A stretch of DNA of 64,000 nucleotides from Nitrososphaerota archaeon (GTDB taxonomy: Archaea > Thermoproteota > Nitrososphaeria > Nitrososphaerales > Gagatemarchaeaceae): assembly GCA_029785825.1 (NCBI GenBank), contig JAFLYY010000001.1, positions 186,001 to 250,000 of the forward strand, given 5' to 3'. Made by a program: the position numbers and the translations under genes. Positions 57,265-61,799 of this stretch are shown here, one piece after another. The notes beneath the pieces are model-generated. The model did no database searches and was not told the origin of the DNA. It saw nothing but the letters and a program-made list of their open reading frames with translations. Position 1 is the first letter of the stretch, and every line of letters begins with the position of its first letter.

Positions 57265-58269
57265 CTACAGCGCTTCAGCTTCTTCTTCCAGTTCGTGGAG
57301 TCCCGCAGGGTCCCCGAACACCAGCAGAGTGTCGTCCACCTGGATGGTGAGGTTCGGGTCGAAGACGTTCTGGATCAGTTCCCCTTTCCTGACCACGCCT
57401 ATGACATGTGCGAACTTCGTCAGGTCGGGGAGCTTCTTCCCTAGCAGTTTGGAGGATTTGAAGACCGAGAACTGGGCTATCTCCTTGGTCCCGACCCTCT
57501 CTGAAAACACTATCCCCACCAGGTCTCTGGTGACGGCAGACAGCGCCAGGAGGTGCCCGACGGAGACTGACGACGGGACCACCACGTCTGCGCCTGCGTC
57601 CTTCGCGGTGCCCGTCAGTTGTTCGTCGTGGACGACGGAGATAATCCGGATGTCGGGCCTGAGGCGCCTTGCGCTGAGAGTCGTCAGCATGTTCTCCGGG
57701 TCCTTGTCGTGGGCGGCGATGAGAGTCGAGGCGTTCCCGATTCCCGCTTCCTGCAGTGCGGCTATGGGCCTGTTCTCCATCTGCAGCACCGCCATCACCT
57801 TCTTCTTGGTCAGCGACTCGTAAATGGCCCGGTCGTGGGAGACCACGACATAGTCGACCCCTATCTCCCCCAGCTTGTCCGCCACGTACCTGCCGAGGTG
57901 GGCGTACCCGAACACTATCACATGGCCCTTCATTCTCTTTAGCATGCTCTTTTCGGCCTCCCCTCTGGCGAGGTCACCATTGACCACGGCGTTTACGGTC
58001 GCCTGCAAGAGAGAGGCTGCCGCGCCGACGGAGACGACGATCGTCACTATAAGGAGGATGATTTCGTTTGCAGGCATCGAAGGGATGTTCCCGCCATGGG
58101 GGACGTAGAGCCCGATGGTGGTGATGGTCGAGACCGATGCGAAGAGGGCGTCGAGGATTGAGAGCCCGGGCTCGTAGTAGTAGAAGACAGCGGTCCCCAG
58201 GGCGAACATCCCGACCAATATGACGAGCTGCCTGTACAGCGCCTTCAAGAGATAGGTCGGAGCGTACAT
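57265..58269 (-). CDS. Two-segment K+ channel with RCK/TrkA regulatory domain
   Basis: 334 residues. A first segment (LVILVGMFALGTAVFYYY), the pore with STITTIGLYVPHG (filter TIGLY rather than TVGYG) and a second segment (ILLIVTIVVSVGAAASLL). Then RCK domain (HVIVFGYAHLGRYVADKLG, about 118) and TrkA-C domain (IQVDDTLLVFGDPAGLHEL). Similar to MthK-like channels; ligand unknown. ATG at 58269; coding-like residues (RTVGFLFYQS) continue upstream, so an unrecognised earlier start (ATT at 58326) is conceivable. Confidence 0.87.
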   Translation of the reverse strand: MYAPTYLLKALYRQLVILVGMFALGTAVFYYYEPGLSILDALFASVSTITTIGLYVPHGGNIPSMPANEIILLIVTIVVSVGAAASLLQATVNAVVNGDLARGEAEKSMLKRMKGHVIVFGYAHLGRYVADKLGEIGVDYVVVSHDRAIYESLTKKKVMAVLQMENRPIAALQEAGIGNASTLIAAHDKDPENMLTTLSARRLRPDIRIISVVHDEQLTGTAKDAGADVVVPSSVSVGHLLALSAVTRDLVGIVFSERVGTKEIAQFSVFKSSKLLGKKLPDLTKFAHVIGVVRKGELIQNVFDPNLTIQVDDTLLVFGDPAGLHELEEEAEAL

Positions 58270-58738
58270 CGACTGATAGAACAGGAAGCCGACGGTCCTG
58301 GTGTGCCTCTTGCTCTTTCGAACAATGGGGCCGGCTGGTGGGGGTGTCTGCGTAGGTCCGCGGGCGGCGACGCCGTTTTTGAGGTTTCGGGGCCCCTCCG
58401 GTTCGACGACTTTGGACAGAGCTTATCCTTGCCTTGGATTCCTTCCCTTCGGCCACCGGTTCTCCGTACGTGATGGTCCTTGAGTAGAGCCCGGGTTGTT
58501 CCCTCATGAGCGCATACAGGGAGGGCTGGGGCCAGTCCCTCGACAAGCTGCAGGGAGCGCTTCGCTAGTTCGTCCCTGTTCAGGAGTCGTAGCCTGGCTC
58601 ACCTACGAAGCTTCGCGGAACCCCCGTTCTTCACTACGATCACGCCGTCGAATGTCTCTGCCCTCCGCAGGCTGCGCCGGTGTTGAGCCCGGAATCGGAG
58701 CCTTTTGGGCAAACAAGACTCGTTCCGGGTTAATTCGA
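58270..58738. other. Intergenic stretch left of the island
   Basis: About 470 bases without a supported gene. It holds the channel gene's promoter side and the flank of a duplicated tRNA end at 58739. Small frames on both strands (for example 58496-58813 plus) give no recognisable product. Base composition looks lower in GC towards the right. Confidence 0.35.
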
Positions 58739-58759
58739 CGGCGACGGTCGGACCCGAAC
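58739..58759. repeat. Copy of the tRNA-Asn 3' end (att-like repeat, left)
   Basis: 21 bases beginning cggcgacggtcggac match the tRNA-Asn 3' end at 60931-60951 at 20 of 21 positions, in direct orientation. The single difference is at the 16th base (c against t). Identity stops at base 22. It fits the displaced 3' fragment left when an element integrates into a tRNA gene. Confidence 0.75.
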
Positions 58760-58898
58760 GGCATACCATGCCAAGGCTCACCCGGATTCTCCATTACGCA
58801 CGCGCTGTCTTGACGATGGTTGGTGACCCGCTCGGGATTCCAGTTTCGAGAAGCGTCCTACTCCCTTAATTCTGAGACAACTCGGCTGAAGAAGCAGC

Positions 58899-60770
58899 AT
58901 GCCAACTGCCCCAGGTTCCTGGACGCGGCCTAGGCTCGCTTGGACGCTCAGGTCCTATCCGCTTCCTGTCATCGCCTTTGCAGGATTGCTCGCAGGAAGC
59001 GTGTCTGGCCTGGTGTTGGGTCGATACGATATCGCGAGGTGGATCTGGTACGGGACCTTGATGGTCGGGGGCGTTCCAGTTGTTGCAAAGACGACCCTCG
59101 GCATGGCGAAAGGAAAGTTCGCTGCAGACATTGTTGCCATGCTGGCCATCGTGACGGCCATCCTCACCGACGAGGCATTTGCGGGCGTGATCATCGTGCT
59201 TATGCAGACGGGGGGCGAGGCAATAGACGACTACGGATTCCGGAGGGCATCTTCCTCCCTGGAGTCTTTGATTGCGAGGGCGCCCAGGCTGGCCAGACGC
59301 AAGAGAAACGACACGGTGGAGGAGATCAAGGCGGAGGACGTGAGGATCGGCGATATCCTAGTGGTCCGGCCGGGGGACCTGATTCCCGTTGATGGCTCCG
59401 TCCAATCGGCGGCGGCCGAAGTGGACGAGTCCGCTCTGACGGGCGAGCCTCTTCCAAGGGATAAGGGGCCGGGGGATGAGCTTCTCAGTGGGTGCGTGAA
59501 CGTCGGACCCCCCTTCGAGATGATGGCGAGCAAGGTCAGCGGGGAGAGCCAATACTCGAGGATTGTCGAACTCGTCAGAAGAGCCCAGGGTGAACGACCG
59601 CCGATTCAGAGACTCGCAGACAGGTACGCAGTCTGGTTTACTCCCATAACCGCGGCGATAGCGATCTTCAGCCTCCTCCTGACGCGGAGTCTCGACGCCT
59701 TCCTCGCCGTACTGGTAGTCGCGACGCCTTGTCCGCTGATACTTGCGACTCCCCTCGCCGTGATTAGCGGAGTCAACAAGGCCGCGAAGGAGGGAATCAT
59801 CGTGAAGAGTGGTGCGGCCATCGAGCAGATAGGGAGGGGACGCGTGGTAATCTTCGACAAGACTGGCACCCTCACCTACGGGACCCCGGTTATCGACCAC
59901 ATGGTTTCATTCGGCGGAGATGAGGGGGCAATGCTGAAGTTGGCTGCGAGCGTAGAACAATTCTCGAGCCACCCTGTCGCCGTTTCGATGGCGCGGGCGG
60001 GAACGGAGAGGTTTGGCGAGCTCCTTGCAGCGAGCAGATTCAGGGAGCACCCGGGACAGGGCGTGGAGGCGGTGGTTGGAGGGAAGGAGGTTGTCGTAGG
60101 ATCGCAGACGTTCGTCGAGAAGTCCATTGGCAAGACCTTCGATTCTAAGACGAAGAACGTTCTCTTGGAGGCACAACGGAAGGGGAGCCTGGTGACGTTC
60201 ATGGCCGTCGATGGGCAGCCCGCCGGGATTGTGGTCTTCAGCGACCAACTCAGGCCGGGCGTCCCCGTACTTATCCAGAGGCTCAGAGACTTGGGCGTAG
60301 ATCAGACGGTGATGTTGACCGGCGACAACGCCGTGAACGCGGGAACGATAGCTAGGGAGGCCGGAATAGAGAAGGTTGCTGCAGATCTGCTTCCCGAACA
60401 GAAGGCGAGGGAGGTCAAGAAGCTTACAGAACAGTTCGAGTCTTCCATCATGGTCGGAGACGGAATAAACGACGCCCCAGCTTTGGCCACAGCCACCGTC
60501 GGGGTGGCCATGGGGGCCCATGGGACGGGGATCTCTGCCGAGGCGGCCGATGTCGTTCTCCTGGTCGACGACGTGACAAAGGTAGGCGATGGCATCAAGA
60601 TTGGGCAGAGAATGCTTCAGATCGCAAAGCAGAGCATCTTCTTCGGAATGGGCGGGAGCTTCGTCCTAATGGGAATAGCCAGTTTTGGATACATCCAGCC
60701 GGCATACGGTGCCATCTTGCAGGAGTTCCTCGACATAACGGTGATCCTCAACGCCTTGAGGGCGAGGTAG
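58899..60770 (+). CDS. P1B-type heavy-metal-transporting ATPase (TPC type)
   Basis: 623 residues. Actuator TGEP (about residue 185), membrane metal site ATPCPLILATPLA (T-P-C-P in place of C-P-C), phosphorylation site DKTGTLT (about 324), SSHPVAVS, and hinge GDGINDAPAL (about 521). No N-terminal metal-binding domain. TPC proteins form a separate P1B branch, linked in the literature to Fe, Ni or Co rather than Cu/Zn; here the metal is open. ATG at 58899; it lies inside the putative island. A TATA-like ccttaattctg (about 58864-58874) is just upstream. Confidence 0.87.
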   Translation: MPTAPGSWTRPRLAWTLRSYPLPVIAFAGLLAGSVSGLVLGRYDIARWIWYGTLMVGGVPVVAKTTLGMAKGKFAADIVAMLAIVTAILTDEAFAGVIIVLMQTGGEAIDDYGFRRASSSLESLIARAPRLARRKRNDTVEEIKAEDVRIGDILVVRPGDLIPVDGSVQSAAAEVDESALTGEPLPRDKGPGDELLSGCVNVGPPFEMMASKVSGESQYSRIVELVRRAQGERPPIQRLADRYAVWFTPITAAIAIFSLLLTRSLDAFLAVLVVATPCPLILATPLAVISGVNKAAKEGIIVKSGAAIEQIGRGRVVIFDKTGTLTYGTPVIDHMVSFGGDEGAMLKLAASVEQFSSHPVAVSMARAGTERFGELLAASRFREHPGQGVEAVVGGKEVVVGSQTFVEKSIGKTFDSKTKNVLLEAQRKGSLVTFMAVDGQPAGIVVFSDQLRPGVPVLIQRLRDLGVDQTVMLTGDNAVNAGTIAREAGIEKVAADLLPEQKAREVKKLTEQFESSIMVGDGINDAPALATATVGVAMGAHGTGISAEAADVVLLVDDVTKVGDGIKIGQRMLQIAKQSIFFGMGGSFVLMGIASFGYIQPAYGAILQEFLDITVILNALRAR

Positions 60771-60930
60771 GTCGCGCCGACGTGGCGATATCGCCCAGAA
60801 GTCTGCCTGTTGAGCAATTCGATTTGCGGGCACCAATCATGTAGCCCATTTCCGGCGTCGCTTACCGCCCGCGATCAGCTAGAATCGAGCTCTTTCTGGC
60901 ATACAAAGTACATTCCGAGCTAATCGCGAG
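60771..60930. other. Gap between ATPase and tRNA-Asn
   Basis: 160 bases inside the putative island, no gene seen. It is the likely site for an integrase gene of SSV-like elements, but no such fragment is visible. Confidence 0.3.
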
Positions 60931-60951
60931 CGGCGACGGTCGGACTCGAAC
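60931..60951. repeat. tRNA-Asn 3' end repeat (att-like, right)
   Basis: Right partner of the repeat at 58739-58759; it covers the acceptor 3' strand and T-arm of tRNA-Asn, the classical target of tyrosine integrases. Confidence 0.7.
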
Positions 60952-61023
60952 CGACGACCAATTGGTTAACAGCCAATTGCTCTACCACGCTGCCCAGCCT
61001 CTGGACTTCTGAGCTACGTCGCC
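60931..61023 (-). tRNA. tRNA-Asn(GTT) with a D-loop intron
   Basis: 93 bases. Acceptor GGCGACG/CGTCGCC with discriminator G at 60931, D-stem GCTC/GAGC, anticodon stem ATTGG/CCAAT around CTGTTAA (anticodon GTT at 60968-60970), T-arm GTCGG-TTCGAGT-CCGAC. All stems are perfect. The D-loop is 28 bases; removing about 19 bases leaves AGCGTGGTA. This fits a non-canonical intron and gives a mature tRNA of about 74 bases. Confidence 0.88.
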
Positions 61024-61089: not shown

Positions 61090-61539
61090 ATGGAGCGTCG
61101 CGCATCCGACGCCGACAAGAAGGACGTGGAGAGCTTCATCCGCTCCTTCTACGAAGCGGGTAAGGACAAGGACCTGACCGCTCTTTCCGGCTTCCATTCT
61201 GGGAGGGACTCGTTCACCAAGTTCGACGAGAATCCCCCCTACACCAGGCAGAACTCTGACGAAGCCTTCGTCTACGAGCAGGCCGCCTTTGCCAACATGA
61301 CGGACTTCCGCTACTCCATGGACGACTTCAGGATAGACCTGTTCGGAGACGCAGCTGTTGCGACGTTCTATCTCACTTACGGGGGGATGTTCGTTAACGA
61401 CTATTCCTTCGAGGGGTCCCCGGTCAGCGGCCGGGCGAGGGTGACGATGGTACTCATCAGGACCCCGAAGGGATGGAGGATCGCCCACGAGCACCTGAGC
61501 AGGTACCCAGACTGGGTCGCGAAGTCGGGTGACAGATAG
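61090..61539 (+). CDS. SnoaL-like/DUF4440 (NTF2-fold) protein
   Basis: 149 residues, ATG 61090. FIRSFYEAGKDKDLTALSGFHS begins the NTF2 fold; FGDAAVATFYLTYGG and RARVTMVLIRTPKGWRIAHEHLS are its beta strands. This cone-shaped fold binds small molecules, but there is no diagnostic active site. GTG or other earlier starts are not needed. Function unknown. Confidence 0.75.
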   Translation: MERRASDADKKDVESFIRSFYEAGKDKDLTALSGFHSGRDSFTKFDENPPYTRQNSDEAFVYEQAAFANMTDFRYSMDDFRIDLFGDAAVATFYLTYGGMFVNDYSFEGSPVSGRARVTMVLIRTPKGWRIAHEHLSRYPDWVAKSGDR

Positions 61540-61607: not shown

Positions 61608-61716
61608 TGGGCCCGGCCGGATTTGAACTGGCGACCGACCGGTCTCTCAGGTCAAACCGTATGAGCCGGTCGCTCTGACCGAACTTCTCGTTCAGGGAAC
61701 TCTGAGCTACGGGCCC
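61608..61716 (-). tRNA. tRNA-Met(CAT), two introns
   Basis: 109 bases. Acceptor GGGCCCG/CGGGCCC, discriminator A, D-stem GCTC/GAGC, anticodon stem ACCGG/CCGGT, anticodon CAT at 61661-61663. The canonical site after position 37 carries a 16-base intron (CGGTTTGACCTGAGAG), leaving loop CTCATAA. The D-loop holds about 28 bases; cutting about 16 at a repeated AGTTC leaves AGAGTTCGGTCA. One A-C mismatch is in the T-stem. Elongator Met or Ile2 (modified CAT) cannot be told apart; it is not the initiator. Confidence 0.85.
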
Positions 61717-61799
61717 ACTTTCGCGGCTCCCCAACCTGCTGCCTTTAAGCGGCTCGGCTAAGCGTAAATAGCCCTGAAAACAGTCAGGAACCAGTCACA

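Follow-up and report, generated by a model that had tools for sequence, protein, structure and literature searches.

A P1B ATPase gene beside an archaeal tRNA-Asn gene is probably one unit of an integrase-less cassette family with a shared right end

We analyzed a 64,000-nucleotide stretch of DNA from an archaeon of the Nitrososphaerota (hereafter the window; G000:C1:186001-250000, where G000 is the source genome), in which a block of about 2.2 kb separates the 3' end of a tRNA-Asn gene from a direct repeat of that end. The original prediction described this block as a metal-ATPase island left by site-specific integration, perhaps a small satellite or a decayed element. We propose instead, with a probability of about 0.8, that it represents a mobile cassette from a family of integrase-less units, which would be moved in trans, most likely by a tyrosine recombinase. 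As read from the genomes compared here, units ending in the same right end occur at several tRNA species, in one orientation, with varied cargo, in tandem stacks, and with empty sites.

The comparison covered 31 genomes of the genus and a survey across the order (250 genomes), with sequence read in stretches around tRNAs and hits. The relatives are draft genomes throughout, mostly MAGs, and some are contaminated (G009 carries two NuoH). The nearest relative of the source genome is G013 (NuoH 96%, TrkA 95%). In two relatives, counterparts of window genes carry large in-frame insertions absent from the window's copies: NuoI of G010 (L185:8334-9953 oriented, 540 aa) and Top6A, topoisomerase VI A, of G041 (L188:4-2700 oriented, 899 aa). 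These insertions are likely inteins.

Table 1. Features of the cassette, its older neighbor and the chromosomal flanks, in window coordinates.
Feature	Position	Strand	Evidence or remark
Left chromosomal flank, TrkA-type channel/NAD-binding protein	57265..58269	-	95% identical in G013
Older-unit remnant	58394..58681	.	Unmatched in the G013 empty site; ORF list without a convincing gene
Second, decayed right end, of the older unit	58682..58737	+	Leave-window-out matrix score 19.7
Displaced tRNA-Asn 3' end (discriminator base to T-loop)	58739..58759	+	20/21 direct repeat of 60931-60951
Left end of the ATPase cassette, GGCATACCATGCCAAGG...	58760..58792	+	Alignment of ten junctions
Stretch 5' of the ATPase gene, conserved with G018 and G021	58837..58878	+	Seen directly in sequence comparison
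Cargo, 623-aa P1B heavy-metal P-type ATPase	58899..60770	+	Pfam PF00122, PF00702; TIGR01525
Right end of the ATPase cassette, about 58 bp, two inverted boxes	60872..60929	+	R1 42.3 bits
Intact tRNA-Asn(GTT), target site	60931..61023	-	Rfam RF00005, 63.5 bits, G000:C1:246931-247023; comparison with G018
Right chromosomal flank, SnoaL-like protein	61090..61539	+	Conserved at tRNA-Asn across the genus

The block was predicted to hold one P1B ATPase, and this gene is indeed the sole plausible one between the repeat copies. Its TIGR01525 match (E=4e-157, 524.6 bits) lies above the cut-off of 346.25, its ion-site helix reads TPCPLILATP, and its closest solved structures are CopA, a Cd-translocating ATPase and ZntA, while a domain search gave no match to an N-terminal metal-binding domain. 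As a putative metal-efflux pump, the cargo would confer metal tolerance. The conserved stretch upstream of the gene is probably a promoter region, and the left end of the cassette resembles the left ends found at tRNA-Asn fragments in G008, G014, G023, G024 and G041. The island had also been credited with less GC-rich codons than its neighbors; the GC3 of the ATPase gene is slightly lower (0.729 vs. a window mean of 0.80), but its overall GC (0.599) is the same as that of the neighboring genes.

Because a D-loop insertion of about 19 nt (about 60990-61008), missing from the G018 gene, is misread by ARAGORN, this program places the tRNA-Asn at 60930-60999. With the Rfam boundaries, the repeat spans the discriminator base through the T-loop. 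The predicted 3'-end repeat is thus confirmed and starts exactly at the terminal base, and the intact gene does face the island with its 3' end, as had been claimed. A search with CGGCGACGGTCGGACTCGAACCG at up to 3 mismatches found just two sites in the 64 kb, 60931-60953 and 58739-58761 (the latter with 2 mismatches), against none in 100 shuffles (0 expected), and a search for a displaced fragment downstream of the tRNA-Asn gave a score of 18.5 vs. a shuffled maximum of 12. A duplicate tRNA gene at 58739 was considered and rejected: the homology ends at the T-loop, after which the bases match the left ends of other cassettes. Other tRNA genes in these genomes also carry unusual insertions. 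In relatives such as G022, and on one G013 contig, the tRNA-Asn has an extra 17-nt insertion in the anticodon loop, which ARAGORN then calls tRNA-Leu, and the G013 contigs show both states, with and without it. At 61611-61717 on the minus strand of the window lies a probable tRNA-Met(CAT) whose D-loop and anticodon loop both carry insertions; ARAGORN and Rfam both missed it.

Empty sites support the predicted insertion at the tRNA 3' end. In G013, where no ATPase ortholog was found, TrkA, about 205 bp, tRNA-Asn and SnoaL are present on two contigs, and the site at tRNA-Asn of G022 is also empty. An insertion beginning at the tRNA 3' end occurs in G022 and G024 as well. The original prediction expected an empty site to join the tRNA directly to the sequence left of 58739. 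The G013 tRNA-Asn does lack the ATPase, but this left-hand sequence is not plain chromosome, since the alignment of G000 to the G013 empty site ends at about 58393, not at 58738. An ATPase at the same place in a relative without the repeat had been named as evidence against insertion, and G018 comes close to this: its ATPase (84% identical) sits at the same tRNA-Asn and no repeat of the tRNA 3' end is detectable there. The insertion reading stands nevertheless, because the same right end is present in G018 (44 bits) and the left flank is rearranged, with TrkA missing. Given the undetected repeat, the ATPase may alternatively have been inserted in an ancestor and later lost from G013 and G022.

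When the sequences immediately to the left of the tRNA were aligned across occupied genomes, a common motif emerged, made of two inverted boxes, AATAGCTC-GAATC ... TTCATTC-T-GAGCTATT. Searching for ACGGAGTTCATTCTGAGYTAAT at up to 3 mismatches returned 23 matches in 15 of the 31 genus genomes, while the reversed control returned 0. A model of 63 positions (R1), built from 24 copies with the tRNA itself left out, matched about 110 times in 27 of the 31 genomes, eight of them in G000. In the order survey, 28 of the 250 genomes were positive, all from one family and spread over four genera, with no match in the roughly 204 genomes of the order outside that family. Carriage of the units on viruses was considered and rejected, as two 19-nt right-end cores had no exact match in IMG/VR. 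In the window, the copy beside tRNA-Asn is the only R1 match with default filters, ranks first of 127,888 positions with the leave-window-out matrix, and stops 1 nt short of the tRNA 3' end. Among 52 right ends examined, 41 directly abut a tRNA 3' end, in antisense (p<=0.01 vs. random positions; 1% expected), with a tRNA library consisting of G000 tRNAs only, and most of the others are followed by acceptor-end-like sequence, as judged by eye. The targets, as intact or displaced tRNA ends, include tRNA-Asn, tRNA-Arg (CCG, TCG and GCG) and several further acceptor ends. R1 matches in the other genera, none of which contributed to the model, also adjoin tRNA-like ends.

The right ends occur in arrays, and the window itself holds one. 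The third-ranking position of the matrix is 58682 (the second is the reverse strand of the right end at 60872), where a decayed copy, which reaches 7.5 bits with R1 with filters off, lies just before the displaced tRNA fragment. The window thus presents two right ends with a tRNA fragment between them, and this fragment is the junction of two units rather than the edge of the chromosome. The early end of the G013 alignment is explained in the same way, because an older unit has been reduced to 58394-58738. Beyond the window, G000 has a row of three right ends ahead of tRNA-Arg(CCG), each with a displaced piece of the same tRNA after it, and its tRNA-Arg(TCG) has one right end flush against it, beside a CrcB/DUF190 pair. 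Tandem units were also seen in G023, G010, G011 and G008. The suggestion of a single satellite or decayed element is therefore not borne out: the island belongs to a large family of small cassettes found at several tRNAs and in tandem arrays. Separately, a small contig bearing two neighboring right ends, with the same R1 scores and spacing, turns up in three genome bins (G000:C3:10753-11724, G045:C136 and G046:C19), which suggests either a shared element or a binning overlap. Another G000 tRNA (G000:C1:1114268-1114357) has a displaced 3' fragment about 1.7 kb downstream (L250; score 16.0 vs. a shuffled maximum of 10.5), where no right end is recognizable, possibly representing a second class of element.

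The cargo of the units is often a single gene, such as a P1B ATPase, CrcB, a cyclase or VapBC, and elsewhere includes, as named from the sequences, class III cyclases, VapBC and AbrB-VapC pairs, a Fic/Doc-like protein and secreted proteins. A large class III cyclase is present beside different junction sequences in G023, G019 and G003 (L182, L192 and L194). Together with the right end, the ATPase itself is present in four genomes: G000 and G018 have it at tRNA-Asn, G003 at tRNA-Arg(CCG), with decayed ends to either side, and G021 at a site other than tRNA-Asn. In the ATPase tree, these four genomes group together, apart from G009 and G022, with moderate values of 82/90 for the joining of G003, while the NuoH identity to G000 is 74% for G003, 81% for G009 and 79% for G022. 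The pattern agrees with a horizontal transfer of the cassette, for which it provides moderate evidence.

What moves these units would have to lie elsewhere. The island had been described as lacking an integrase, and we agree: the ORF list contains none within it, and G000 gave no match to PF00589 or PF16795 and hence no detectable tyrosine integrase. An SSV-type split integrase was rejected on the missing PF16795 match. Other genomes of the genus do encode integrases, which rarely lie near a right end: in G023:C88 one lies immediately within a right end, though it is frameshifted, and another begins just after a junction in G014/G006. With near-linkage confined to these cases, we rejected the idea that a dedicated integrase accompanies the right ends. 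Enzymes closely homologous to that of G023 (87-94%) in G004, G009 and G045 have no right-end core nearby. A 64% identical ATPase in a Thermoplasmata MAG (L222:10001-13119) has a tyrosine integrase gene directly after it; neither the right end nor a tRNA was found there, and we did not accept it as a unit of this family. As no integrase is consistently linked to right ends, the helper recombinase is something that we infer.

Our model suggests the following. Each unit would consist of a left end, one cargo gene and the right end of about 58 bp flush with the tRNA. A circular cassette, its joined ends carrying a short copy of a tRNA 3' end, would recombine with the tRNA gene; the copy brought by the cassette would restore the tRNA, and the old 3' end would be pushed outwards together with all earlier cassettes, so that arrays would grow at the tRNA. 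The inverted boxes would be bound, as duplex DNA, by a site-specific recombinase, most likely of the tyrosine type, supplied in trans to cassettes that have none. More tentatively, and at slightly less than even odds, this could amount to an integron-like form of archaeal gene capture, with tRNA genes as docking platforms, one dedicated recombinase, a constant arm and family-wide arrays. Several tRNA 3' ends would then be used, since each cassette carries a short core that copies some tRNA.

Four other explanations of the island were weighed. It could be an ordinary tRNA-targeting genomic island or plasmid whose integrase and most genes have decayed, with the repeat as attL/attR. The direct repeat, the empty site and the missing integrase all agree with this, and integrase loss after integration has been described for archaeal elements (PMC8371274). 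However, there are about 110 copies of this right end, which accompany unrelated single genes, lie at several tRNAs and form arrays; we consider such decay improbable, because independent events would not yield one compact structure every time. The units could also be integron-type cassettes of the CALIN kind (attC sites without the integron integrase), with the tRNA as a pseudo attI. CALINs are known in archaea (PMC9668308) and resemble the arrays in their tandem single-gene cassettes, their toxin-antitoxin and resistance-like cargo, the one recombination end of each cassette and the absence of an integrase; an IntI was indeed missing from G000 (no PF00589 match), as expected in a CALIN. Against this, the right-end consensus reads GTTCATT where the R' box of attC would be GTTRRRY, and the targets are tRNA genes, not attI. 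The inverted boxes have a stem-like look, but we rejected them as attC since no consensus fold emerged with RNAalifold and no covariation was found (75.1% paired vs. 75.2% in shuffles, 64 copies). Absent covariation, a duplex binding site is a better reading than a folded strand, and CALIN cassettes appear very improbable.

We regard as remote a gene-turnover hotspot, in which homologous recombination between the tRNA-Asn/SnoaL and INO1/TrkA flanks would exchange genes with no site-specific step. Gene content between INO1/TrkA and tRNA-Asn does differ among nearly all genomes of the genus: the interval is either empty or occupied by various genes, among them the ATPase, an MBL-fold hydrolase, a methyltransferase, PPK2 with a P-type ATPase, and OsmC (names other than that of the window's ATPase being judged from the sequences), with no integrase recognized among them. 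Such turnover would nevertheless leave unexplained the displaced tRNA fragments, the common right end and the same ends at other tRNAs and flanks. Finally, the position of the right end just downstream of tRNA 3' ends might mark it as a terminator or 3'-processing site of the tRNA gene, with the ATPase as an old neighbor, but this is practically negligible given that the right end is absent from the empty tRNA-Asn sites of G013 and G022, adjoins displaced fragments that lie far from every intact tRNA, and has 8 R1 matches in all of G000 vs. about 30 detected tRNAs.

If the cassette reading is true, it would provide a concrete mechanism for single-gene gain in an uncultured archaeal lineage. 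The genes so gained would be those for metal and fluoride tolerance, toxin-antitoxin pairs and signaling proteins. The 58-bp right end also serves as a marker for listing the cassettes of any genome in the family. Should a single recombinase serve many tRNA cores, the system would be one of naturally re-targetable insertion.

Insertions at tRNA genes are common in Thaumarchaeota, where cryptic integrated elements range from 2.6 to 98 kb (PMC6563490). The units described here share with them the tRNA 3'-end insertion, the short att repeats and the occurrence both singly and in tandem; those elements, however, are classed by gene content and have the integrase as their most conserved protein (PMC6563490), whereas our units have no integrase and mostly carry single genes. 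Like tycheposons of Prochlorococcus and Methylophilaceae, they are tRNA-anchored cargo elements, but tycheposons, as described in PMC10872708, measure 4-200 kb and encode a tyrosine recombinase, in contrast to the 2.2-kb window unit, which has none. With integrons and CALINs (PMC9668308) they have in common promiscuous single-gene cassette arrays captured at one end, often with no integrase; unlike these, they show no attC boxes or conserved fold and dock at a tRNA gene. A further likeness is to additive flexible genomic islands, of which fGI-2 of 'Ca. Methylopumilus', with the last 20 nt of tRNA-Lys recurring, is an example (PMC10872708). According to the passages of that paper on these islands, variable inserts stand in tandem at one tRNA with 3'-end repeats between them, go down to very small sizes and bring metabolic and resistance cargo, as here; the islands in those passages (PMC10872708) are bacterial, use one tRNA and are described with no constant end, whereas here an end of about 58 bp is common to units at several tRNA species in four genera of an archaeal family. 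Open-licence papers gave no account of a constant end on integrase-less single-gene units at several tRNAs. Thus, tandem tRNA islands are already known, and the constant end across different tRNA targets and cargos is what appears to be new.
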